A stretch of 64,000 nucleotides of DNA, from contig OW388301.1 of NCBI GenBank assembly GCA_936450465.1, forward strand, positions 17,093,523 through 17,157,522, in the 5' to 3' direction. Under the pieces are notes generated by a model. It made no database searches. It saw only the letters and a program-made list of their open reading frames with translations, and was not told where the DNA came from. The translations under genes and the position numbers were made by a program. Below are positions 1,904 to 64,000 of this stretch, piece after piece. The stretch comes from Gibbula magus. Lineage: Eukaryota > Mollusca > Gastropoda > Trochida > Trochidae. Positions within the stretch are counted from its first letter, which is position 1, and each line of letters starts with the position of its first letter.

Positions 1904-2522
1904 TCACACTTTATTTGGAGGCGGGGGTATGTGAGCTGTGCTCGCCTCTACACGCCGGTGAGTGTAGTCATGTTTGTTGTTTGTGAGTGCTTTGACAGTG
2001 TCCAAATAGCTGTTGTGTTGTGGAAGTTTGGTGATGTGTTCCGAAATGGCTGATTTGTTGTCTCCTTTGGTTGTTGATGTTTTGTGTTCTTTGATGCGTG
2101 TGTTGAACGGTCTTGATGTTTCCCCAATGTAGTTGCTGCCGCAGTCGCAGCTAATGTTGTAAACAACTCCTTTAGGTTGTTGTTGTTTTTAGGCATATTT
2201 CTTACCATTATCCTTGATGATGGTTTTGAGTGGGGTGGCCGAGGAAAAATAAGTGTCTATGCCTACTTGTTGCTTGAGTAGACGACTGATGTGGTGTGAT
2301 GTTTTGCCAATGTAGGGTAGTGGGATGCGAATAGGGGCAGGGGTAGGCTTGCTAGTAGTGGGTTTGAGTGGTTGGTTTAGGGTGCAGTTGATGACACGGT
2401 CAACATGTTTAGTTGGGTAGTTGTTAAGTTGGGTGAAGACATGCCGGAGGTGTTTAAGTTCAGAATCAGGGGTGGCAGAGGATAGGTTGATGGCACGGCG
2501 GGTCAGGGTGGAGATGATGTCT
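1904..2522 (-). pseudogene. Penelope-like element C-terminus (linker + GIY-YIG endonuclease)
   Basis: On the minus strand a continuous reading frame runs from about 2522 to a stop at 1904-1906, interrupted by one in-frame TAA at 2189-2191. Upstream of that stop lies the Penelope linker signature LPYIGKTSHHISRLLKQ. Downstream lies a GIY-YIG nuclease core: GVVYNISC, SNYIGETSRPFNTRIKEH, then AISEHITKLPQHNSYL. In Penelope-like retroelements this domain follows the reverse transcriptase and nicks target DNA. The RT domain is absent; the fragment stops exactly where the 18-bp motif array begins. The nonsense codon and truncation mark it as dead. Confidence 0.8.
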
Positions 2523-2525
2523 GTT

Positions 2526-2735
2526 GTGCTCCAAATTGTAATAAATGCTCCAAATTGTAATACCTGCTCCAAATTGTAATAAAAACTGCTCCAAATTGTA
2601 ATACCTGCTCCAAATTGTAATAAAAACTGCTCCAAATTGTAATATCTCGATTTTCGTAAAACATACTGTCAATCTGCTCCAAATTGTAATAAAAAGTGCT
2701 CCAAATTGTAATAACTGCTCCAAATTGTAATAACT
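2526..2735 (-). repeat. Left inverted end: nine copies of an 18-bp motif
   Basis: Nine copies of TGCTCCAAATTGTAATAA separated by 2-6 bp, except one ~30-bp spacer at about 2645-2672. It abuts the truncated Penelope fragment on its left. Translations of this block in several frames (ITIWS, YNLEQ, LQFGA) are repeat artefacts. Confidence 0.85.
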
Positions 2736-2759
2736 GTGGTGAAGCTACATCTCGTGTTG

Positions 2760-5260
2760 CTGAAAATTAAAATATATAGAGTTGATGAAAAGAAGATCTG
2801 ATACAGATGAAGATACAAGAGTTTATGTAGATGTTGATAAGATGTAAATCGACATGTAGATGAAGGTGATGATTTCGATCTTGATGTATGTATTGATGTA
2901 CAGCATGATGTTGATGTAAATATAGGCGTTGATGTAGATATAGATATAGGCATTGATATAGATGTAGATATAACTGTTGATGTTGCGGTAGACAACTTGA
3001 TGTAGATAATAGACTTGATGTGGATGTACATGTATATGTTGACGTAGATGTAGATGTAGACGAATATAAGCCTGCTAATAACATTTAAATGTAGATATGT
3101 AGATGTGATCTTTTTAGATGTATATGTACGATAAGACAAAGGTTTTATGTGTACAACAAAACCCGATACAGAGGTAAGACTTGTAATAACATGAGTGAAG
3201 CTAATAACATTTAAATGTAGATACAAATGAATGTAAATGCTTAGATATAGATGTATGCGTAGCTGTAGTTGCAGATACATTGTATATGCCATTTTATATG
3301 TTATTGTAGGTGTAAATGTAGATGTGATCTTGACGTAATTGTTGATATTAATTTTAGTTGTATTTTGTTTTAGATGTATATGTACGATGAGGCAAAAGTC
3401 TTATGTGTACAACAAAACCCGATTCAGAGGTTATGCCTTGTAGTAACATGAGTGAAGTTATATCTCATGTTGAGAATAATTAATTTGTAAGTGTTGATAT
3501 AGATATTGATATATAAGTTGATGCATATGTAGAAATAACTGATGTAGATGTAGATGTAGACACAGATGTAGGTGTATATACAGACGTAAATGAACAGGAT
3601 GTGGGTGATGATTGCGAAGTAGATATTGGTATAGATGTTGTCATAGATGTAAATATATTATTTAATGTAGAAATAAAAGGCTTAGATAAGTAGATGTAGA
3701 AGTACGTGTTACTGTATGTATAAATAGAGATTAAGAAGCAACGGTTGACGTTGGCTAATATATTTAGTTGTAAATGAACAGATGTAGATGTAGATCTTCG
3801 TGGTGTTGTGAATAAATATGTAGGTGTGAAGTAGTAGTAGTAGCAGTGGGGTTTACATGAAAAGATGTAAATTCTGATATAAGAGTCGATGTAGATGTAG
3901 ATGCAAGGGCTGGTGTAGATGAACATGTAAGATTTGATGTAGATGTGACAGTTGATGTAGATGTTGATATGAAAGTTGATGTAAATGTAAGAATTGATGT
4001 AGATGTTGATGTAAGAGATGATGTTGATGTAAGCGGTGATGTAGATGTAGATGTAAGAGTTGAATGAGATGTGGATATATAAAACTTGATTGAGATATGG
4101 ATATAAGAGTTGATGCAGATTTATGTGTATGAGGTGATGTAAATGTAGATGTAGGAGTAGATGTAGATGTAGAGGTAAGAATGGATGTAGATGTAAGCAG
4201 TAATGGAGATGTAGGTGTAAATGTAAAAGTTGATACAGATATTGAGAGAATTGATGTACATATAAAAGTTGATTGAGATATGGATATAAGAGTAGATGTA
4301 GATGTAAGAGTTGATGTAGGTGTAGATGTAAGAGTTGATGAAGATGAAGATGTAAGTGTTGATTTGAGGTAGATATAAGAGCTGATAAAGATATAGAAAG
4401 AGTAAATGTTGATATAAGAGTTGAAATAGAAATAGATATAGATATAATGTAGATGTATATTTGAGTTGACATGAGTTGTCGGAGATATAGATGTTGAAGT
4501 AGACAGAGTTACAAATGATTAATAGATAGGTGTTGCTTTAGATGCAGATGTAGGAAAAGATTATGCGAAGATGTAGATGCAAATGCAGTTGTATGTGTAA
4601 ATGCAGTTGTAGACGTACCGGTAGAGATAGCTTGATATGTAGGTGTAGATGTAGATCTGGGTGAAGATGTCGATGTAGATGTAGGTAAACATGTATGCGA
4701 AAATGTGTATATAGATGTAGATATAGATGTAAATTGAAAATGTAGATGATGATTTAGACTTAGATTTAGATGAAGGTATAGACGTTTACAGAGACGTAGA
4801 TGTAGATATAAGAGTTGACGTAGATATAAGAGATGATGCAGAAGTATATGAAGATACATATACAAACTCAGGCGCAGATGCAGATGTACGTAAAGTTATA
4901 GATTTAGACGTAATTGAACATGTAGATGTAGATCGAGACGATGATGTAGATGAAGATGTAGGTGTAGATGTAAATAGATATGTAGCAAAAACGGTAGACA
5001 AAGTTTTAGATGCATACATGTATCTTAATCTAAATACAGATTTAGATCTTCATTTAAATGTATATATGGGTGTAAGTGTAGATGTGTATGATGATGTAGA
5101 TGTAAAGGTACACACAGAGGTACGCGTAGATCAAGGTTTTGTGTGGAGAGGTAGATGTATTATGTAAACGTAACTGTATGCGTAGGTATAGATTCAGATA
5201 CAAGACTTAGTGTATATGCCAATTGGAGATTTCATTGTATGTGTTAGTGTAGATTTAATC
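2760..5260. repeat. Degenerate GATGTA hexamer-like repeat
   Basis: About 2.5 kb of purine-biased, imprecise GATGTAGATGTA/GTTGATGTAGAT repetition. A near duplication lies at 3085-3230 and 3290-3460 (both contain ACGATRAGGCAAA.. then GTGTACAACAAAACCCGAT). Long minus-strand open frames rich in Ser, Thr, His, Leu and Tyr arise because the hexamer lacks stops in that frame; codon content is purely repeat-driven, so it is not called coding. Confidence 0.8.
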
Positions 5261-5377
5261 TTGATGTTATGGTTGAGTTGATTCTAGTTGTACATAAAAT
5301 GTATTAAAAAATAAAATGTTGATACACATGAAAAATGAAAGTCTCATTTCAAGAGCAAACTATGTCACCCATTTATA

Positions 5378-6548
5378 CACTAGTGCTCAAAAGAAAGTAT
5401 ACAGTTGTTAAACCAGGCGTCAAATGAAAACAAATTCAAATATTTTTTTAAATCTTGTTAATTTCAATAGAGTATTCGTTTTTACAACAAATGTTACAGA
5501 TACATTGCATTTGATATTGAATATTAGGTTTAATGATCAATCAGAGACAAGTGGGGTACTAATGTAAATTAACACTTTCAAAGATATAGGATAAAGTGTC
5601 TTTCATTGCCAAAATGTCAACAATAACGAACTCAATAACGAGTGTGACCTCCATTGGCGTTGATACAGGCCGTAACACGTCGACACATTGATGATGTAAG
5701 GCGACGAATGACGTCAGGCGTGATTCTTTGCCATTCCTGTTGGAGACATTGTTCCAGTTGCTGGACTGTGACAGGGGGCACTGGTAGTCTTCCGATCATC
5801 ATTTCTGTAATGGCAATACCGACTTTCGTCGGAAAACATCACACATGCCCAATCACACCTCTGCCACCGTTGAACCCGCCTGGCCCACGTCAGTCTACAA
5901 CGTTGATTTTGACCTGTCAGATAAATACCACGGTATGGTCGATGTGCCCGAATGCCATGTCTTCGAAGTCGAGTGTAGACGGTGTGTCGACTGATAGGGT
6001 GACGTAATGCTGTTGACGCCGTTGATGTCGCCGTTGCGAATCTATTTCTGAAATGAATCGTTCGAAAATGTCGATCCTCAGCGGGCGTCATGACACGTGG
6101 TCGACCGCTTCTAGGCTTGTCCGATGTACTGCCTGTGTGTCTCAGCCGATGTATCAGTTTTTACGATTGTAGTTCCGGTACAACCAAAGGTTCTGGCAAT
6201 GTTGGTGTGTCTTTCTCCTTGCGTGGCAAATTCGACAGCTTTCTCTAATTCGACAGGACTCAAACGTGGCATACTTCTTATGTTTTTCCTACTACTGCAT
6301 CCCTAACGTCTCGCTTAGGCTGTTTTATACAATCAATTTGCACATGCAGTTTGTGTTACACAAGAATATGTCATTTTTGGATTTCATCCAACGTTTTTGC
6401 GAATCGTAATTGTTTTCGACATTTTTTCCACAGAAAGTATGGGTCTATACGTGGGACACAATTTCCAGTATGGTTGATCAATAATTTTTTTATTTTGAAA
6501 AAAGTACTCGTATTTTTTTAGGTGTATACTTTATTTTGAGCACTAGTG
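5378..6548. mobile_element. Tc1-like DNA transposon, internally deleted
   Basis: A 1171-bp element with inverted ends: CACTAGTGCTCAAAAGAAAG at 5378 and its near complement ending at 6548 (one mismatch in the first 25 bp). It is flanked by TA at 5376-5377 and 6549-6550, as expected for Tc1/mariner. It interrupts the GATGTA-rich block or its right border. Confidence 0.88.
5632..6272 (-). pseudogene. Tc1-like transposase remnant
   Basis: The reading starts at ATG 6270-6272 with an N-terminal HTH (MPRLSPVELEKAVEFATQG, HTNIARTFGC). It shifts frame near 6130 into KPRSGRPRVMTPAEDRHFRT, then HPISRHTVYTRLRRHGIRAHRP. The DDE region starts normally (RLTWARRVQRWQRCDW, VMFSDESRY with the second catalytic-type Asp), but the segment carrying the later catalytic residues is deleted. 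A third frame supplies the tail (LEQCLQQEWQRITPDVIRRL ... ACINANGGHTRY) ending at 5632. A full Tc1 transposase is about 340 residues; roughly 90 are missing here. It cannot be active. Confidence 0.85.
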
Positions 6549-6689
6549 TATTATATAAGTTCTATTTTATCACTATATAATTTACTAATTATTGTATCAT
6601 GGCAGATTGATAGTGTAATATTCCTGATTGTCGTATATGTATACTGTCATCAAAAACAAACTACAATATCAGATATTTATATTGTTGAT

Positions 6690-8960
6690 TACAATTTTGA
6701 TCAAGTATTACAATTAGGAGCAAGCCTTTGCTCCAAATTGTAATAACTGCTCCAAATTGTAATTACAGCTCCAAATAGCATTTACAAGTGTAAATACCTG
6801 AAAACTAGTTGTAATGTTCTGATGATGACAATGGTAAATATAATATCAATACAGATTTATTTACGCCTACAGCCTTTGGTTTTTGCATAGACAAATAAAA
6901 GCCTAATGCGACTGAAATGAGTTCTTCTTTTACACTTAAAGGACATAAAAATTCATTCGGTCATCAACCTGGTAATGTCATTAATTTTCAAATAATGACG
7001 TGTAAGTCAAATGGATCTTATTCCGAATTTTGTCCGTTTGGATATTTTTGGTCACATAATATTGGATTTATGGAGCTTTTGCTCCAAATTGTAATAACTG
7101 TTCCAAATTGTAATAACAGCTCCAAATTTCACTAAACAGTGTTAATACCCACAATTTGGTTGTATTATTATGATGATGGTACATCTGATATTAATAAACG
7201 TTTTTTAATGCCTACAGCATGTCTATTTTTGGTCACATGATATTGTATTTACAAGCATTATTATAATTTGGAGCAGTTATTACAATTTGGAGCAAGCCGT
7301 TGCTCCAAATTGTAATAACTGCTTCAAATTGTAATAACAGCTCCAAATTGTACTAAACAGTGTAAATACCCAAAATTTGGTTGTATTATTATGATGATGA
7401 TAGTCACAATGGTACCTCTGATGACAATAAAGGTTTGTTTATGCCTACAGCATTTCTATTTTTGGTCACATGATATTGAATTTATGAGCATTATTACAAT
7501 TTGGAGCAGTTATTACAATTTGGAGCAAGCCTTTGCTCCAAATTGTAATAACTGCTCCAAATTGTAATAACAACTCCAAATTGCACTAAACAGTGTACAT
7601 ACCCAAAATTTGGTTGTAGTATTATGATGATGATACTCACAATGGTACATCTGATATTAATGAACGTTTTTTTTTTATGCCTACAGCATATCTATTTTTG
7701 ATCATATGATATTGAATTTATAAGCATTATTACAATTTGGAGCAGTTATTACAATTTGGAGCAAGCCTTTGCTCCAAATTGTAATAACTGCTCCAAATTG
7801 TAATAACAGCTCTAAATTGCACTAAACAGTGTAAATACCCAAAAGTCGGTTGTAGTATTATGATGATGATAGTCACAATGGTACCTCTGATAACAATAAA
7901 GTTTTGTTTATGCCTACAGCATTTCTATTTTTGGTCACATGATATTGAATTTATGAGCATTATTACAATTTGGAGCAGTTATTACAATTTGGAGCAAAGG
8001 CTTGCTCCAAATTGTAATAACTGCTCCAAATTGTAATAACAACTCCAAATTGCACTAAACAGTGTAAATACCCAAAATTTGGTTGTAGTATTATGATGAT
8101 GATAGTCACAATGGTACCTCTGATAACAATAAAGTTTTGTTTATGCCTACAGCATTTCTATTTTTGGTCACATGATATTGAATTTATGAGCATTATTACA
8201 ATTTGGAGCAGTTATTACAATTTGGAGCAAGCCTTTGCTCCAAATTGTAATAACTGCTCCAAATTGTAATAACAACTCCAAATTGCACTAAACAGTGTAA
8301 ATACCCAAAAGTTGGTTGTAGTATTATGATGATGATAGTCACAATGGTACATCTGATATTAATGAACGTTTTTTTTATGCCTACAGCATATCTATTTTTG
8401 ATCATATGATATTGAATTTATAAGCATTATTACAATTTGGAGCAGTTATTACAATTTGGAGCAAGCCTTTGCTCCAAATTGTAATAACTGCTCCAAATTG
8501 TAATAACAGCTCTAAATTGCACTAAACAGTGTAAATACCCAAAAGTTGGTTGTAGTATTATGATGATGATAGTCACAATGGTACATCTGATATAAATAAA
8601 CGTTTTTTTTATGCCTACAGCATTTCTATTTTTGGTCACATGATATTGAATTTATGAGCATTATTACAATTTGGAGCAGTTATTACAATTTGGAGCAAGC
8701 CTTTGCTCCAAATTGTAATAACTGCTCCAAATTGTAATAACAACTCCAAATTGCACTAAACAGTGTAAATACCCAAAATTTGGTTGTAGTATTATGATGA
8801 TGATAGTCACAATGGTACCTCTGATAACAATAAAGTTTTGTTTATGCCTACAGCATTTCTATTTTTGGTCACATGATATTGAATTTATGAGCATTATTAC
8901 AATTTGGAGCAGTTATTACATAACTGCTCCAAATTGTAATAACAGCTCCGAATTGCACTA
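6690..8960. repeat. Hairpin satellite built from the 18-bp motif, ~237-bp units
   Basis: About ten hairpins, near 6700, 7080, 7265, 7490, 7730, 7965, 8205, 8440, 8665 and 8895. A typical one reads two forward TTATTACAATTTGGAGCA motifs, a loop of about 6 nt (AGCCTT), then two or three reverse TGCTCCAAATTGTAATAA motifs. This gives a stem of about 35 bp. Spacer DNA between hairpins is highly conserved (AACAGTGTAAATACCC, TTATGCCTACAGCAT, GGTCACATGATATTGAA). Short peptides within the spacers recur only because the repeat does. Confidence 0.9.
6780..7045 (+). repeat. Long-form satellite unit, direct copy of 8960-9226
   Basis: The first satellite unit is longer than inner ones and shares a segment with the last unit at 8960-9226, including ATTCGGTCATCAAC, GTCATTAATTT, and TCTTATTCCG followed by TGTCCGTTTG. 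The ~237-bp inner units probably expanded inside an ancestral long unit. Confidence 0.7.
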
Positions 8961-9219
8961 AATAGTGTTAATACCCCAAATTCGGTTGTAGTATTATGAT
9001 GAAGAAAGTGATAATGGTACATCTGATATCAATAGAGTTTTTTTTAATACCTACAGCATTTCTTTTCGCACAAAGAAATTAAGACCGACAGCGACTAAAA
9101 TGAGTTCTCGTTTACATTTGAATGATATAAAAACATCATTCGGTCATCAACTTGGCAATGTCATTAATTTATAAATAATAACATGAAAGTCAAAAAGATC
9201 TTATTCCGCGTTGTGTCCG

Positions 9220-9625
9220 TTTGATCCACATCTACACATCTAAACCACTCTTTATTTATAATTCATATCCACATTACATCAACAGTTACATCTGCATCAT
9301 AACCTAAGTACCCATTATACATTAACAATTACATATTCATCCCCGTCATGTCCACGTCTACATGAACATGTACATCGTGATATACAGAGCTCTACATCTT
9401 CATATTCAGCTTGATAATCAGGACATTTTACATCTCCATGTCCTTCAACGTTAACATGGCTACGTCTACGTCTACATTAACATATACATCTTCATCTACA
9501 ACTTCATCTGTACGTATATGTCAACTTAAATATGTAAATCGTAATCAACATCAACATCTACATGCATATAGATACAACTTTCGTGTATATCAACCTTACT
9601 GTTTACACAAAATCAATCTTAAAAT
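9220..9625. repeat. CATCTA-type repeat, mirror of the left GATGTA block
   Basis: About 400 bp of loose ACATCTACATCTACA repetition, the complement of the 2760-5260 repeat, placed symmetrically on the inner side of the right motif array. From 9626 to 10136 I see no gene and no repeat. Confidence 0.65.
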
Positions 9626-10136
9626 CAATACAAGCAGACATAGTCTACTATAAGTGGAAACCTGTTACAGAAATATGTATTGAACAATGATTGTAAAGCT
9701 TAATGCTATAATAAATCCTAAATCACTAATTAGTTATTAATTCATGCTACAGAAGGAAATGTACTTCCCACAACAGAATACTGTCTATCTAAAAATAACC
9801 AAGTTCTGTTCCGGAAGCAATATTGTAGAACGCATTTCGTATTTTGCTCGGGAATCAAGATGTAGATGTTTTTCCATGGCTAAAAATAAAATTCAAAAGA
9901 AGTTAACAACCCCAAAAGGAACATCTTGATATGATGATTGCTCCGGACAGACAGACGGACTGAGGTCATTTCCTTATCCATTATTATTATTTCGTTAACA
10001 CGGGGGATAATAACAATCTTCATAAACATTGTAATTACCATTATCAAAACGAACACCGAATCAATGATCACCATAAAACCAAAATCGTCAAATAATCAGA
10101 ACTAAAGATATTTAAGCTTACATCGCCTTTATCTGT

Positions 10137-10345
10137 GTTATTACAATTTGGAGCAGTTATTACAATTTGGAGCACTTTTTATTACAATTTGGAGCAGCTT
10201 GACAGTACGTTTTTCGAAAATGTGGTTATTACAATTTGGAGCAGTTTTTATTACAATTTGGAGCAGGTATTACAATTTGGAGCAGGTTTTATTACAATTT
10301 GGAGCAGGTATTACAATTTGGAGCAATTATTACAATTTGGAGCAC
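10137..10345 (+). repeat. Right inverted end: nine copies of the 18-bp motif
   Basis: Nine copies of TTATTACAATTTGGAGCA in the opposite orientation to 2526-2735. Spacer order is the same, including a ~30-bp spacer at about 10198-10226 that matches the left one apart from a few substitutions. Confidence 0.85.
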
Positions 10346-11048
10346 TACAATGTCGGTTTTAGTTATGAGTGGATGTTTGGAGTCAAAGTGTTGAAAATAT
10401 ATTATGAAATTAATAAGTATAAAGGTCACAGAAGAAGCATACTGAAATCATTTGATGAAGTAATAGGTAGAGGAACAAACTGAACAAAATACATACTCAT
10501 GTTTGTATTCATGATGAAGCATATATAGTATATAGGTAAACATATTTTAAAATAAAAAAAGCCTTGCAATACAACGATATATATGACATGAGACTTTAAA
10601 TGACAACATGTATAAATAATGTTCTTATTGCTTATGGATGCAAGGGATTTCAATTACAATATTAATCTATGATCATTGACAACGATTTTCTTCTGATTCA
10701 CCATTGATTTGTTCGTTACGTTTTGTTGACCTTGAAGGGAAATGAAGAAACGACGACGCATGCGCCAACGATTGTCAGAATGACAATGAACACCTGTCAA
10801 CTTGCAACATGCATATTTTGTCATAAAATGTAGCTGTAATGGTGGTATGTTATCGATGTGTGTCTTTCAAAGACGTTATTGGTATAATAGTGTAGGCAAT
10901 GTAAATTTACTATTGATCCTGATATGTCAACTTTCATTATCCAAATAACAACCAACATTTGTACACTATAAAAAGGATCATTACCATACCATGAATGTCA
11001 ATGTAAAAAATTGTCAAAACGACAATTTAATTATTTCATTGTTTGTAC
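10346..11048. other. Non-coding stretch, nothing recognised
   Basis: AT-rich sequence with short open frames only. No domain, RNA or repeat was recognised. Confidence 0.5.
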
Positions 11049-30449: not shown

Positions 30450-30629
30450 TAGCAGCTCCGGAGCTGCTATCAGTTTTTGTGCAGTTTCCGTCGCCGCCGC
30501 CGCCGCGTTTTGTATTCACTATTACTTGTTTATGCCCCCGAATCGGAGATTCCGGGGGTATATTGTTTTTCACCTGTCCGTCTGTCTGTCTGTCCGTCTG
30601 TCTGTCTGTGTGTTTGTCCACAAAAACTT

Positions 30630-31545
30630 TAACCTTGGCCATAACTTTGGATTGCTCAGAGCTAGGGCTTTCATACTTGGCATGTGCATACCTTGTGATG
30701 AGACCTTTCAGATTAGGTCATCATATTTGACCTTGTGACCTTGACCTTGCCGCAATTGACATTTTCAGAAAACTTTAACCTTGGCCATAACTTTAGATTG
30801 CTCAGAGCTAGGGCTTTCAAACTTGGCATGTGCATACCTTGTGACGAGACCTTTCAGACGAGGTCATCGAATTTGACCTTGTGACCTTGATCTTGCCGCA
30901 ATTAACATTTTCAGAAAACTTTAACCTTGGCCATAACTTATGATTGTTAAGAGGTACGGCTTTCATACTTGGCATGTGCATACCTTGTGGTGAGCCCTTT
31001 CAGATGAGGTCATCATATTTGACCTTGTGACCTTGACCTTGCCGAAGTGGACAATATTTAGAAAACGTTAACCTTGGCCATATCTTTGGATTTCTCAGAG
31101 CTACGGCTTTCATACTTGGCATGTGCATACCTTGTGATGAGACCTTTCAGATGAGGTCATCATATTTGACCTTGTGACCTTGACCTTGCCGAAGTGGACA
31201 ATATTTAGAAAACGTTAACCTTGGCCATAACTTTGGATTGCTCAGAGCTACGGCTTTCATACTTTGCATGTGCATACCTTGTGATGAGACCTTTCAGATG
31301 AGGTCATCATATTTGACATTGTGACCTTGACCTTGCCGAAGTGGACAATATTTAGAAAATGTTAACCTTGGCCATAACTTTGGATTGCTTAGAGCTACGG
31401 CTTTCATACTTGGCATGTGCATACCTTGTGATGAGACCTTTCAGATGAGGTCATCATATTTGACCTTGTGACCTTGACCATGCCGCAGCGGACAATATTC
31501 AGAAAACTTTAACCTTGGCCATAACTTCGCTACATCGGGGGGCAT
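30630..31545. repeat. ~150-bp tandem repeat rich in TGACCTTGTGACCTTG
   Basis: About six units, each with TTAACCTTGGCCATAACTTT, GATTGCTCAGAGCTA, CTTTCATACTTGGCATGTGC, GAGACCTTTCAGATGAGGTC and TTTGACCTTGTGACCTTGAC. Units are 85-97% alike by eye. Confidence 0.9.
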
Positions 31546-43765: not shown

Positions 43766-46700
43766 GTCCTTACTGTTACTGTCCTTACTGTTACCTTACA
43801 AAAAGTTTAAGTAAAGACCACTCAAGTAACAGTATGGATTTTGTATTCTTCAAAATGATCTTGAAGACATGTTTATCAATATTTTGTTAAATCCTTCTCT
43901 TACATTCTAAGGAAAACATATAAAAACATTCCAAAGTTGACCAAGGAAAAAATATGTTTCATAAATTTGTTTTGCTGATTTCCAGCATCGTTTTGTAACA
44001 GTATAGACAAATTTCATAATAGTATTGACAGTATTCTGCCAAAACTATTTGATGATAGATGATTTGACTATAGATGATGTTTGATATTATTTACTTTCAC
44101 TGTGTATAAGCTTTCAAGTATATAAGTTTTGTATGTCATTGAATAATTGAATAAAAGATGAACACACATGAAAAGGTCATCAGTGTTTTAAGTAACAGTA
44201 TGGACAAAATTATTTACAACACATAAAAAATTGCTTTATTCGATTTTTAAAAAAATATTCATTATCCCCCGCCGCGCGTTTAGCGGGGGATATAGTATTG
44301 GCTGCGTCCGTCCGTACGTACGTACGTCCGTACGAAATGGAATAACTCAAATACTATTCACTGGATTCTTTTCATATTTTGCATAGGGGTTCATCATGGG
44401 AAGAGTAATGTTCATAGGTTTGTGACCTTGACCTTCATTTTAAGGTCACAACGAGACTTTGTTATTTTACCCTTGTCAGCGGGATATCTCATTAACCATT
44501 CCCTGGATTCTCTTCATATTTTACACATAGCTTCTCCAAGGTAAGACGACGGGCTGATTAGATTTTGGTGACCTTGACATTATTTTCAAGGTCACAGCGG
44601 AACTTTGAATTTTTCGACATGTTAATGTACATGTAAAGGTTGTCAGCGGGATATCTCAAGAACCATTCACCGGAATTCCATCATTTCTTACACAAAGCAC
44701 ATTCTAGGGAAGACGACGAGCTGATTAGATTTTGGTGACCTTGACATTATGTTCAAGGTCACAGCTCAACTTTGAATTTTTCGACATGTTAATGTACATG
44801 TAAAGCTTGTCAGTGGGATATCTCAAGAACCATTCACCGGAATTCCATCATTTCTTACACAAAGCACCTTCTAGGGAAGACGACGGGCTGATTAGATGTT
44901 AATGACCTTGACATTATTTTCAAGGTCACAGCGGAACTTTGAATTTTTCGACATGTTAATGTACATGTAAAGGTTGTCAGCAGAATATCTCAAGAACCAT
45001 TCACCGGAATTTCATCATATCTTACACAAAGCAAAAGGACTGATTAGATTATGGTGACCTTGACATTATTCTCAAGGTCACAGCGGAATTTTAAATTTTT
45101 CGACATGTTAATGTACATGTAGAGGTTGTCAGCGGGATATCTCAAGAACCATTCACCGGAATTCCATCATATCTTACATAATGCACCTCCTAGGAAAGAC
45201 AAAGGGCTGATTAGATTTGATGACCTTGACATTTTTGTCAAGGTTACAGTGGAGCTTTGACTTTTTCGACAAGTTTGACAGTCGATTTTGCTGATCTTGA
45301 CATTATTTTTAAATTTTGAAGTATTAATTTTCGGCGGGGGATCATGTCACCTTAGTGACAACTACTTGTTTATTCTTTATTTACTTTTAATGATAACATT
45401 TTGGGAAATTAAGTGTTTTTGTAACAGTATTGACAATAAAAGGTAACAGTATGGACAATTCTTTTCCAAACAAATATTTGTTCAACCTTTCATTAACTAT
45501 AAATGCGTTTGCTTCCTCAATGCATGTTGTCTATTGTTAAGCAATTTATAATTTAAGTCATCATTGGTTAATATCAAGTTTAATCTTGAATTTATCCATT
45601 AATATTTCAGGTAACAGTATGGACATTGATAGGTAACAGTATGGACAAACCAAAACCAAAACAAACTAATATTTATGCTCAGATGACGGATAGTTTCTAT
45701 AGTCTTTATGTATTGATTTTTAATTGTTAGAAACTTTAAATATTGCTGGAAAAATAAAACGTTCATCCAAATTATCAATGAAACTTGATTTTTGGTAACA
45801 GTAAGGACAATAAAAGGTAACAGTATGGACAATTCTTTTCCAAACACATATTTGGTCATCATTCAATTGACTATCAATGCGTTTGTTCCCCGAATGATGT
45901 CTATTGTTAAGCAATTTGAAATTTAAGTCAGCTTTGGTAAATATCATTTTTTTATTTTTTACTGTCAATTAAACTTTAATTTTGGTAACAGTATTAACAT
46001 TGAAATGTATTTAAACAGTATGGAAACTATCTATTCAAAACCAAAATGTATTAGAAAAAGATTTATCTATTAACATGATTTTTGTTTTTGTTTTTAGGAA
46101 ATGTTAAACTATTGTAAATTGTAGAAAAATATCTGCTTAAATAATTTCTTTTATAAATTAAACAGATTTCTTGTAACAGTATGGACATTGATAGGTAACA
46201 GAAGGGACAATTATATTGAAAACAAATTGATATTTACGCTCAGATTACTGATAGTTTCTATAGCCTTTATGTATTCTGTTCTAATAGTTCAAATGTTTAA
46301 AAACTGTAATTATTGCAGACGAAACCCCACTTTGATTCAGATTATCAATGAAACTTGATTTTTTTGGTAACAGTATGGACAATAGAAGGTAACAGTGGGG
46401 ACAATTCTTTTTCACAGAAATATGTTGTCATCATTCAATTAACTATCAATGCTTCTGGTTCCTTAATGCAATAAAGCAATTTGAAATTTAAGTCATCATT
46501 GGTAAATATCAATTTTAATTTTAATTTTCAATGAAACTTTTGGTAACAGTATGGAGATAAAAGACACATTATGGACAAACTACCTAAAAATCAATAATTA
46601 TTCATAACCAAATTATCTTTGAATATTTGTCTTAATTGATGTTAAATATGATACAAATATAGTGATATAATGATATGTTAAATCTAAAATTGTCAGTGAA

Positions 46701-46795: not shown

Positions 46796-48091
46796 CGAGG
46801 GGCGTTCAATAAGTGTTGCAAGCGGGGCATTGGTGTTTACATAAACAGTGTCAGCTTATAGCAGGTGTTACTATAGTCAAAACATAACATTGACACATGT
46901 CAAAACAATTTCTAGACATAACAATTATTTAGATATAATAGCTGCGCTGACCTAGGGGTCCCCATAATCATGGATTCTCTCAAACATGAACAACGCGCTG
47001 TGATCAAGTTCCTTACTAAAGAGGGATGCAAAGCTACAGAAATACATAATCGTATGTGTAATGTGATGGGTAAGGATGCTCCTAACTTTTCAACAGTTTG
47101 TCGCTGGTCTCTTCAGTTCAAGCGGGACAGGGAGTCCTTAGACGATGACCCACGGTCAGGCAGGCCATCTGAAGTCACCCGACCGGAAGTTATTGCCGCT
47201 ATCGAAAGACGAATTTTAGCTGACCGCCGTGTTAAAGTTTCTTAACTGTCTTTGGAATTCCAGATATCAGTTGGAAGTGTTGAAAAAATAGTTCATGACC
47301 ATCTTGGTATGTCCAAGGTATCTGCAAGATGGGTACCCAGAAACCTCACAGCACAAGATCGCCAGAAAAGAACCGAAAGTTGCATGGAGCTCCTGGATCG
47401 GTTTAATGCGGATGAAGCCAGGTTATTGTCTCGTCTGGTGACAGGTGACGAAACCTGGATCCACCACTGGGACCCGGAAACTAAACTGGAATCCAAGCAA
47501 TGGAAGCACCCGAGTTCACCGCCTCCCCTGAAGTTTCGCACTCAACCATCAGCTGGCAAGGTTATGGCGACAATCTTTTGGGATGCAAAAGGCATATTAT
47601 TAATTGATTACTTGCCAACCAAAACTACAATGAATGGTCAATATTATGCCAACCTAATGCAAGAATTGCGAAAGACAATTCGACAGAAACGCCGTGGAAT
47701 GTTGACACGTGGTGTTCTGATTTTGCATGACAACGCTCCAGTCCACAAGTCAAGAGTTGCACAGGCCGCTATACGTGATTGTGGATTCGAACAGCTTAAC
47801 CACCCACCCTACAGCCCAGACCTAGCCCCCAGTGACTACTTCCTGTTCAGAAACCTGAAATCCGCCCTACGTGGAAGGCACTTCCGGGATGACGAAGACG
47901 TCAAAGCTGCCACAGAGGCGTGGTTAGGGGGGCAAACGGAAGACTTCTACAAAAGCGGCATTAAAAGTCTTAAATTGAAATGGAATAAGTGTATTGAGGT
48001 GAAGGGTAACTATATTGAAAAATAAAAGTAAAACATTGACTACGCAAGTTGGTTTTATATTGAAGTCGCAACACTTATTGAACGCCCCTCG
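46796..48091. mobile_element. mariner-type transposon, nearly intact
   Basis: A 1296-bp element with inverted ends CGAGGGGCGTTCAATAAGTG and TTGC (essentially perfect for the first ~24 bp), flanked by TA at 46794-46795 and 48092-48093. It is inserted in the ~187-bp satellite. Confidence 0.95.
46970..48025 (+). pseudogene. mariner transposase with one nonsense codon
   Basis: ATG at 46970 opens a 351-codon frame, broken only by TAA at 47243-47245 (VKVS*LSLEF, where Glu would need a single base change). The N-terminal paired-like HTH pair (KHEQRAVIKFLTKEGCKATE; STVCRWSLQFKRDRESLDDD; PRSGRPSEVTRP) precedes the catalytic domain. Catalytic Asp residues lie in LVTGDETWIHHW, ILHDNAPVHKS and HPPYSPDLAPSDYFLFRNLK. 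Spacing between the second and third is 34 residues (DD34D), diagnostic for mariner. Length is normal. The sole stop and excellent ends indicate a recent copy, though as written it encodes only a 91-residue N-terminal fragment and a separate catalytic open frame. Confidence 0.93.
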
Positions 48092-53375: not shown

Positions 53376-53748
53376 TGGAAAGTTTCATCCAGATGGTTCA
53401 TCACATTTACGTGCAATATCTTTCGAAAGGGATGTGGAAGAGGGTTAGCAGATATAAATCAATTTAATATTAATTAGTCAATTTCTAAAGCGCTAAACTC
53501 CATGCTGGGGGACTGCTCATAGTGCATACATAATTATAATCTAAAAAGAGTTATTATAAGATGTTTGAAAGGGGTGGGTTTTTAAATGAGACTTGAACAG
53601 AGTCAATATTGGGTATGTTCGTAGATAATCCACAGCTTAGCTGAAGGAAGGGAAACCGATTTCAGCTGCTAACGGAGAACGTTCAGTAGATTTCTGTGGC
53701 TGTCTGCAGGGAGGTTACAATTACGGCTGGATGGAGTAGGATGGTAAA

Positions 53749-55631
53749 CTACGGAAGCATCCAAGTGCCACAGTGAGAATTGTTTTACTATCACCTAATT
53801 AGGAGATACTAACTCCTAATTAGGACTAAGTTAACGCCTAATTAGGAAATAAGTAAGTCCTAATTAGGAGTAAGTATCTCCTAATTAGGAGTTAGCATCT
53901 CCTAATTAGGTGATACTAACTCCTAATTAGGAGATGCTTACACCTAATTAGGAGATACTAACTCCTAATTAGGACTTTGTTATCGCCTAATTAGGAAATA
54001 ACTGAGTCCTAATTAGGACATAAGTAACCCCTAATTAGGAGTTTGTATCTCCTAATTAGGAGTTAGTATCTCCTAAATAGGAGTTAGTATCTCCTAATTA
54101 GGAGTTAGTTATTTCCTAATTAGGACTTAGTTATTTCCTAATTAGGACTTAGTTATGTCCTTATTAGGAGATAACTAAGTCCAAATTAGGAGAAACTAAC
54201 TCCTAATTAGGAGATACTAACTCCTAATTAGGACTTAGTTATCGCCTAATTAGGCCATAACTGAGTCCTAATTAGGAAATAATTAAGTCCTAATTAGGAG
54301 TTAGTATCTCCTAATTAGGAGTTAGCATCTCCTAATTAGGTGATACTAACTCCTAATTAGGAGATGCTTACTCCTAATTAGGAGATACTAACTCCTTATT
54401 AGGACTTTGTTATCGCCTAATTAGGAAATAACTGAGTCCTAATTAGGAAATAAGTAAGTCCTAATTAGGAGTTAGTATCTCCTAATTAGGAGTTAGCATC
54501 TCCTAATTAGGTGATACTAACTCCTAATTAGGAGATGCTTTCTCCTAATTAGGAGATACTAACTCCTAATTAGGACTTTGTTATGTCCTAATTAGGACTT
54601 AGTTATGTCCTTATTAGGAGATAACTAAGTCCAAATTAGGACATAAGTAACCCCTAATTAGGAGTTAGTATCTCCTAATTAGGAGTTAGTATCTCCTAAA
54701 TAGGAGTTAGTATCTCCTAATTAGGAGTTAGTTATTTCCTAATTAGGACTTAGTTATGTCCTAATTAGGACTTAGTTATGTCCTTATTAGGAGATAACTA
54801 AGTCCAAATTAGGAGAAACTAACTCCTAATTAGGAGATACTAACTCCTAATTAGGACTTAGTTATCGCCTAATTAGGCCATAACTGAGTCCTAATTAGGA
54901 AATAATTAAGTCCTAATTAGGAGTTAGTATCTCCTAATTAGGAGTTAGCATCTCCTAATTAGGTGATACTAACTCCTAATTAGGAGATGCTTACTCCTAA
55001 TTAGGAGATACTAACTCCTAATTAGGACTTAGTTATCGCCTAATTAGGAAATAACTGAGTCCTAATTAGGAAATAAGTAAGTCCTAATAAGGAGTTAGTA
55101 TCTCCTAATTAGGAGTTAGCATCTCCTAATTAGGTGATACTAACTCCTAATTAGGAGATGCTTACTCCTAATTAGGAGATACTAACTCCTAATTAGGACT
55201 TTGTTATGTCCTAATTAGGACTAAGTTATGTCCTAATTAGGCGATAACTAAGTCCTAATTAGGACATAAGTAACCCCTAATTAGGAGTTAGTATCTCCTA
55301 ATTAGGAGTTAGTATTTCCTAATTAGGAGTTAGTTATTTCCTAATTAGGACTTAGTTATATCCTAATTAGGACTTAGTTATGTCCTTATTAGGAGATAAC
55401 TAAGTCCTAATTAGGAGATACTAACTCCTAATTAGGAGATACTAACTCCTAATTAGGAGATACTAACTCCTAATTAGGAGATACTAACTCCTAATTAGGC
55501 GATAACTAAGTCCTAATTAGGAGATACCTAAGTCCTAATTATGAGATAACTAAGTCCTAATTAGGGAATAGTATCTCCTAATTAGGTGATAGTAAAACAT
55601 TTCTCACTGTGCCACTAGGATGCTTCCGTAG
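53749..55631. mobile_element. Inverted-repeat element filled with palindromic CCTAATTAGG array
   Basis: A 1883-bp unit. Its ends (CTACGGAAGCATCC, then CACAGTGAGAA and TGTTTTACTATCACC) are inverted copies of ~50 bp, flanked by TAAA at 53745-53748 and 55632-55635. The interior is about 85 copies of CCTAATTAGG spaced 21-22 bp, with spacers of a few types (AGATACTAACT, AGTTAGTATCT, ACTTAGTTATS, AAATAACTGAGT). A longer block containing AGTTAGCATCT then GTGATACTAACT recurs at 53890, 54311, 54491, 54942 and 55107. It is non-coding. Superfamily unknown. Confidence 0.85.
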
Positions 55632-55844
55632 TAAACAGTGAAGTCAAATTGCATCATTAAAATGATTGACTATAAACTAGTGTCAAAACAGGCGAAGAAC
55701 CAACCAATTTGAAATACGTTTTAAAGTGATTTTTTATATCGTTACTTTACTATGAAAGTCTTACCTGTTATCTTTTGATCATTCTTTAATAAACATATTG
55801 CTAGCTTCAATGTGTCAAAGTGATATTAAGCCCTAGGGTATGGA

Positions 55845-63644: not shown

Positions 63645-64000
63645 ATTGTTGATGATAATTATGCTGATGATGCTGATGATAATTATGCTGATGATGCTGA
63701 TGATAATTATGCTGATGATGCTGATGATAATTATGCTGATGATGCTGATGATAATTATGCTGATGATGCTGATGATAATTATGCTGATGATGCTGATGAT
63801 GCTGATGATAATTATGTTGATGATGCTGATGATAATTTTGCTGATGATGCTGATGATAATTATGCTGATGATGCTGATGATAATTATGCTGATGATGCTG
63901 ATGATAATTACGCTGATGATGCTGATGATAATTATGCTGATGATGCTGATGATAATTATGCTGATGATGCTGATGATAATTATGCTGATGATGCTGATGA
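63645..64000 (+). repeat. 24-bp minisatellite, runs off window
   Basis: Perfect to near-perfect GATGATAATTATGCTGATGC-type units (24 bp: two GATGAT triplets, AATTAT, GCT), about 14 visible copies in intron 1 of gene C. One unit is shortened near 63795. Open in several frames only because of the repeat. Confidence 0.95.

Follow-up and report, generated by a model that had tools for sequence, protein, structure and literature searches.

The 64,000-nucleotide stretch of Gibbula magus DNA analysed here (the window; contig OW388301.1) contains a 7.8-kb element that lies within a Penelope-like retroelement, carries inverted arrays of one short motif at its two ends, and holds in its middle a satellite built from the same motif. 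The ends of the element and the flanks into which it was inserted are as follows.

1928-2521, minus strand: downstream piece of the Penelope-like element, with what we take from its signature to be a GIY-YIG-type end, and one stop in frame (flank translation and alignment).
2517-2521, plus strand: left copy of the target-site duplication, ATGTC (in a 9-bp version, 2517-2525, ATGTCTGTT), 5/5 or 8/9 identical to the sequence from 10350 onward.
2522-2734, plus strand: left terminal inverted repeat, in which a unique 30-bp spacer separates the sixth of nine motif copies from the seventh (motif scan and repeat alignment).
10137-10349, minus strand: right terminal inverted repeat, nine motif copies in the pitch order of the left (motif scan and repeat alignment).
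10350-10354, plus strand: right copy of the target-site duplication, ATGTC (in a 9-bp version, 10350-10358, ATGTCGGTT; flank comparison).
10350-10396, minus strand: upstream piece of the Penelope-like element, about 16 residues recognisable (flank translation and alignment).

Terminal arrays and insertion site

The motif, TGCTCCAAATTGTAATA, is 17 bp long and has 55 matches with at most three mismatches in the 64-kb window, against 0.61 expected from shuffles; all of them are confined to 2527-10344. Nine exact copies lie on the plus strand in the left array (2527-2732) and nine exact copies on the minus strand in the right array (10139-10344). Both arrays share a single order of pitches (19, 19, 22, 19, 22, 47, 22 and 19 bp), and the unique 30-bp spacer occupies the identical place in each, with 23 of 30 bases alike. 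As a whole, the inverted repeat pairs 2522-2734 with 10349-10137, and 203 of the 213 bases (95.3%) are identical, giving, as in a foldback element, terminal inverted repeats that consist of short tandem units. The common pitch order and spacer position point to a single element rather than to independent satellite growth. The initial annotation had made the same claims of nine-copy arrays, spacer order, unique spacer and single origin, and all of them stand, the last also in view of the insertion described below. Two of the three frames of the arrays are open on one strand, and a protein-coding reading of them was set aside as a by-product.

Two placements of the ends fit the flanks. With ends at 2522 and 10349, five of five flanking bases are shared (ATGTC) and the tips read TGTTG and TGTAG, whereas with ends at 2526 and 10349 eight of nine flanking bases are shared, with one mismatch, and the tips are unequal. 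Both placements use the same stretch and yield the same empty site. The duplication test covered four end placements and lengths of 2 to 12, with some chance matches expected. Either placement gives the bounded insertion with a target duplication, of 5 or 9 bp, that characterises a foldback element. The extent first proposed (2526-10345) was about right, the ends lying a few bases outside it at 2522 (or 2526) and 10349.

The flanks of the insertion join at the duplicated ATGTC, which is GACAT on the minus strand. On that strand the left flank reads TDIISTLTRRAINLSS, running on into GIY-YIG-type-like sequence, and the right flank reads FQHFDSKHPLITKTDI; joined, they form a single frame that reads through the joint and has one stop further down. 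We searched with this joined protein (212 residues, with X at the stop) and obtained 21 related proteins, 15 from Haliotis, one from the chiton Liolophura and five from ENA contigs. The best relative was an ENA protein (65% identity over 98% of the query) and the best named one came from Haliotis asinina (63% over 92%). Judged by such relatives, the window would probably be molluscan, perhaps from a gastropod close to abalone. The alignment across the joint took in 11 of the 21 (eight Haliotis, one Liolophura and two ENA proteins), and all 11 are gap-free at the joint, P0004 lacking one residue four positions beyond it. The database's own label PF26215 is attached to 17 of the 21 relatives, one of which also bears PF00078, a reverse-transcriptase family; by signature, the flank protein and its relatives are presumably Penelope-like with a GIY-YIG-type end. 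Pfam matched the joined protein only to DNA_pol_E_B, below the cut-off of that family, and a search of solved structures gave nothing significant (best E = 0.47). The restored reading frame is here stronger proof of insertion than the target duplication, and together the two show that the 7.8-kb stretch is one inserted unit.

These observations bear directly on a reading without any transposon, in which two satellite patches and a satellite middle were joined by inversion or by a fold-back in the assembly. Such a history would be in keeping with a motif that also builds the middle satellite, and with inner arms of unequal length (see below), but it fits poorly with the identical pitch order and spacer position, with flanks that rejoin one reading frame and with the target duplication. 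The arms, moreover, differ at 10 of 213 bases, which makes an assembly fold-back unlikely. We give this reading hardly any credence.

Inner arms, nested insertion and hairpin satellite

Between the terminal repeats we distinguish four further features.

2740-5370, plus strand: left inner arm, a degenerate GATGTA-type repeat of about 2.6 kb (repeat and mirror alignment).
5375-6551, minus strand: nested Tc1-like insertion, not part of the original element, with 29-bp inverted ends (28/29 alike) and a transposase remnant in an open reading frame (ORF) at 5714-6091 (HTH_Tnp_Tc3_2, E = 2.3e-8).
6688-9223, no strand assigned: middle satellite of six 233-236-bp units and diverged outer units, with opposite motif pairs at the unit edges and a hairpin at each junction (repeat, motif and folding analyses).
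9225-9600, minus strand: right inner arm, a mirrored CATCTA-type repeat of 0.37 kb (mirror alignment).

The mirroring of GATGTA and CATCTA repeats that was reported initially is real, with an alignment score of 67 for the mirrored against 29 for the unmirrored comparison and 40 for the best of 100 shuffles, but the two sides are far from equal in length. About 0.5 kb of unremarkable sequence separates the right inner arm from the right terminal array. The Tc1-like transposase was considered as the outer element's own and rejected, as its ORF lies within the nested insertion, which has its own ends.

Beyond the end arrays lie 37 more matches to the motif, of which 30 are exact. The hairpin satellite of the motif that had been described is thus borne out, except that its stem measures 38 bp and not about 35 bp; the length of the satellite in the assembly may be in error. 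Six successive units of 233-236 bp occupy 7301-8704, with units of 351 and 221 bp on their left; each unit has a motif pair at its start and an inverted pair at its end, and nine head-to-head junctions can be recognised (6717-8709). The junction spacer is AGCCTT in six of the nine, AGCCGT in one, a shortened form in one and, in the remaining one (7997-8002), AAGGCT, the reverse complement of the common form and the outcome predicted for tips flipped by cruciform or template-switch events. The foldings covered four of these junctions, including the flipped one, and gave a 38-bp perfect stem with a 4-nt loop at -42.6 to -42.8 kcal/mol, compared with a shuffle mean of about -9.2. A tenth junction, at about 8911-8925, is damaged: its tip is lost, and its folding energy is -26.2 kcal/mol. 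The leftmost, longer unit (351 bp) has a stretch, 6743-7040, that is found again at 8920-9223 (78% identity), which suggests that the common 233-bp unit is an internally deleted version that underwent amplification.

Low variation of the motif and probable nature of the element

The two arms amount to a natural experiment in which spacers changed and motifs did not; with no evidence but the sequence itself, this argues that the sites were selected. Of the 153 motif bases none differs between the arms, compared with 10 of the 60 other bases (Fisher p = 1.8e-6), or 9 of 55 if the outer five bases are left out (p = 3.8e-6). Without the 30-bp spacer the differences outside the motif fall to 3 of 30 (p = 0.004), and without both the spacer and the outer five bases to 2 of 25 (p = 0.019). 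Spacers match by array position: when spacers of equal length are permuted, 4 of 144 arrangements reach the observed identity. The perfect motifs are therefore unlikely to result from copying between different positions in the array. The satellite behaves in the same way: in its six units, 1 of 68 motif columns is variable against 23 of 165 others (p = 0.0034), and with a seventh, more diverged unit the counts are 3 of 68 and 29 of 153 (p = 0.0035; ungapped columns, the motif columns being the four exact copies of one unit). Because changes between the arms avoid the motif so completely, we favour the view, already put forward in the initial annotation, that the motif is a functional site, and specifically a selected protein-binding site, most likely that of the transposase. 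Selection cannot act on the sites of an insertion that no longer moves; the divergence of the arms therefore probably dates from a time when the lineage was mobile and the need to be bound preserved the sites.

The same avoidance of the motif, in end arrays and satellite alike, would also follow if the motif bound a host protein (a replication, chromatin or transcription factor) and the array were kept for that purpose, with transposition secondary. The single pitches of 19 and 22 bp would then lie near two helix turns (1.8 and 2.1), but the cumulative positions (1.81, 3.62, 5.71, 7.52, 9.62, 14.1, 16.19 and 18.0 turns) are not all in helix phase. A fresh insertion needs no host function to have intact sites, and no host site or protein was identified. 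We consider binding by a host protein improbable as the reason for the array.

Very probably the element is a foldback-type DNA transposon that moves by cut and paste and is non-autonomous, presumably mobilised in trans; this is our preferred explanation. In its favour, the Tc1-like insertion aside, no Pfam family exceeded its curated cut-off in the four ORFs in or overlapping the element. A transposase made elsewhere would bind the 17-bp motif, the nine sites at each end may load several transposase molecules and pair the ends, and the element would then have inserted with its short target duplication. An internal unit with opposite motif pairs at both edges would have been amplified head-to-tail to give the middle satellite, in which junction hairpins may drive the tip flip and tip loss seen there.

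The foldback explanation divides into two sub-cases according to the ends. In a Mutator-type element (Phantom, Foldback or Rehavkus-like), mobilised by a MULE transposase, the ends at 2526 and 10349 would be flanked by the 9-bp duplication ATGTCKGTT, eight of nine bases matching, and the outermost bases would be unequal (G on the left, CTACA on the right). Tm1 is described with asymmetric outer motifs outside the inverted repeat, 8-10-bp duplications in 45 of 53 copies, and end repeats of tandem motifs that are on average 93% alike within a copy (95.3% here; PMC3169594), and Tetris also has duplications of 8-10 bp (PMC4079207). This sub-case requires one mutation within the duplication as well as the unequal ends, and we put it close to, but short of, an even chance. 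In an integrase-type, Ginger2-like element, the duplication would be the 5-bp ATGTC, matching at all five bases, and the ends at 2522 and 10349 would be symmetric (TGTWGTGCTCC...GGAGCACWACA), with the end repeat reaching the very tips. These tips fit the TGTNR pattern of Ginger1, Ginger2 and Gypsy, and Ginger2 duplications are of 4 or 5 bp (PMC2836005, PMC10045372). However, ATGTC, a single site, does not match the RTATAY target preference of Ginger2, animal Ginger2 elements have 4 bp with 5 bp occurring only in TDD-4/5, and array ends are not among the Ginger features described in the passages cited. We hold the Ginger2-like sub-case as a tentative possibility. Neither a MULE domain nor a Ginger2-type integrase was found among the 13 ORFs scanned of the 26 listed in the window, which counts against each sub-case in turn. 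A fuller version, in which an integrase-type transposon (TGT...ACA, 5-bp duplication) evolved foldback ends independently, with nine-site arrays under site-by-site selection and the binding site copied into an internal hairpin satellite, appears unlikely; if true, one protein site would link transposition and the birth of a satellite.

Several points weigh against the foldback explanation or the constraint on which it draws. The length of the duplication is ambiguous, being 5 bp if exact and 9 bp with one mismatch, and Penelope-like similarity covers only some 16 residues of the right flank before it is lost further up. Seven of the ten differences between the arms fall within the long spacer, so the argument from constraint is weaker once that spacer is removed, and the low variation of the satellite motifs could also stem from homogenisation. 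The middle and the inner arms make up most of the length, unlike in compact non-autonomous elements. The element's own transposase was not found in the ORFs scanned within the window, and the analysis rests on one copy.

Related arrays were sought in other sequences. A tandem pair of motifs, exact or relaxed, had no match in prokaryote contigs and none in viral contigs; six matches to the single motif in viral contigs were taken as chance. A search with the array translation gave 2 of 1338 candidates, at E = 0.019 and 1.4, neither below the cut-off of 0.001. Both candidates, P0052 and P0053, predicted proteins from ENA contigs of 3.5 and 2.6 kb, can be read as diverged motif arrays stepping through three frames: motif-like words number 8 in one and 10 in the other where shuffles reach at most 5 and 7, and 5 in each at a stricter setting where shuffles reach at most 3 and 2 (1000 shuffles each). 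This hints at related arrays in other contigs, as a lead only; a scan of viral contigs with one of the two array-like proteins gave no relative.

Other repeats and mobile sequences occur in the same window. A second satellite bounded by inverted ends lies at 53748-55632, with 80-bp terminal repeats that start ACTACGGAAGCATCC and are alike at 74 of 80 bases, an interior of some 1.7 kb made up of 21-bp units around the palindrome CTCCTAATTAGGAG, and a possible 4-bp flanking duplication, TAAA. An ORF at 73-1062 is tyrosine-recombinase-like (Phage_int_SAM_1, E = 4e-4, just below the cut-off) and has relatives in Haliotis asinina (the best named one, after an ENA protein), cyprinid fishes, a catfish and many contigs; it probably belongs to a mobile element. 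Two related short inverted-repeat elements, resembling miniature inverted-repeat transposable elements (MITEs), are found at 1475-1571 and 1739-1809, the second partial, with a 62-bp inverted match of 95%. A 257-aa ORF at 47252-48025 has a mariner-type transposase domain (Transposase_1, E = 7e-25), and further tandem arrays lie at 30623-31527 (147-bp unit), 44473-45275 (167-bp unit) and 63650-64000 (24-bp unit).

Comparison with known foldback and related elements

The sea urchin foldback element, TU, has short repeat units. Drosophila FB and a sea urchin element are named as foldback elements in PMC4079207, and FB elements have composite end repeats with tandem repeats (PMC3169594). The statement in the initial annotation that no described family has this plan, with Foldback only an analogy, was too cautious as regards structure: Tm1, Tetris and Galileo share much of the plan.

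Tm1, a Mutator/Phantom foldback family of root-knot nematodes, has end repeats that consist largely of 13-15-bp tandem motifs, and most of its copies are without a transposase (PMC3169594). As in one end placement here, it combines short unequal outer bases with 9-bp duplications, and, as a further likeness, some copies hold nested insertions or a histone-hairpin motif. The sequence and length of its motif are different, the number of motifs is unequal between Tm1 ends but equal here, and an internal satellite of the end motif is not among the Tm1 features described in the passages cited. Rehavkus-1_TC, compared by description only, is a 9.5-kb DNA transposon with short satellite arrays in its inverted ends, mostly of five and eight monomers, but its monomer is 164 bp (PMC10218199). 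Ginger2/TDD elements resemble the element if its ends are placed at 2522 and 10349, in having TGTNR ends and 4-5-bp duplications (PMC2836005), but the likeness is limited to these two features, and the target preference is at odds with ATGTC. Among bivalves, the modular MITEs of the Pearl family (CvA, DTC84), again compared by description, carry short arrays resembling satellites, and in DTC84 a palindrome lies close to the junction of the repeats (PMC5139131); the arrays are of up to six monomers placed internally, not inverted end arrays of a short motif.

For the array itself, the best working model, by analogy, is Galileo of the P superfamily, whose long, internally repetitive ends contain several demonstrated sites for the THAP domain of its transposase (PMC3688188, PMC3573991). 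Galileo differs in its P-type transposase and 7-bp duplications; here at most 2 of 7 flanking bases match at any of the four end placements. The first of these papers, which reports the Galileo binding, regards the Foldback and Phantom tandem repeats as untested, and the reason for repeated sites in foldback ends is said to be little tested (PMC3688188), a question to which paired arrays of this kind may speak.

For the step from end repeat to satellite, the element resembles Tetris, a foldback transposon of Drosophila virilis that seeded a satellite (PMC4079207). Tetris is likewise non-autonomous, with composite inverted ends containing tandem repeats from which the satellite was seeded, and its 8-10-bp duplications correspond to one end placement here; its repeat of about 220 bp lies inside the ends and also in longer satellite-like arrays, whereas the present element has end units of 17-22 bp and a centrally placed satellite. 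A targeted literature search, within the passages and abstracts it covered, met no mollusc element with end arrays of this kind, which does not show absence from print. Three features are perhaps new: the sequence family itself, the equality of the two nine-site arrays together with the conservation of each site, and the presence in the middle of the element of a hairpin satellite made of that site. An internal satellite of the end motif would be a plausible intermediate between a transposon end and satellite DNA, as has been proposed for Tetris.

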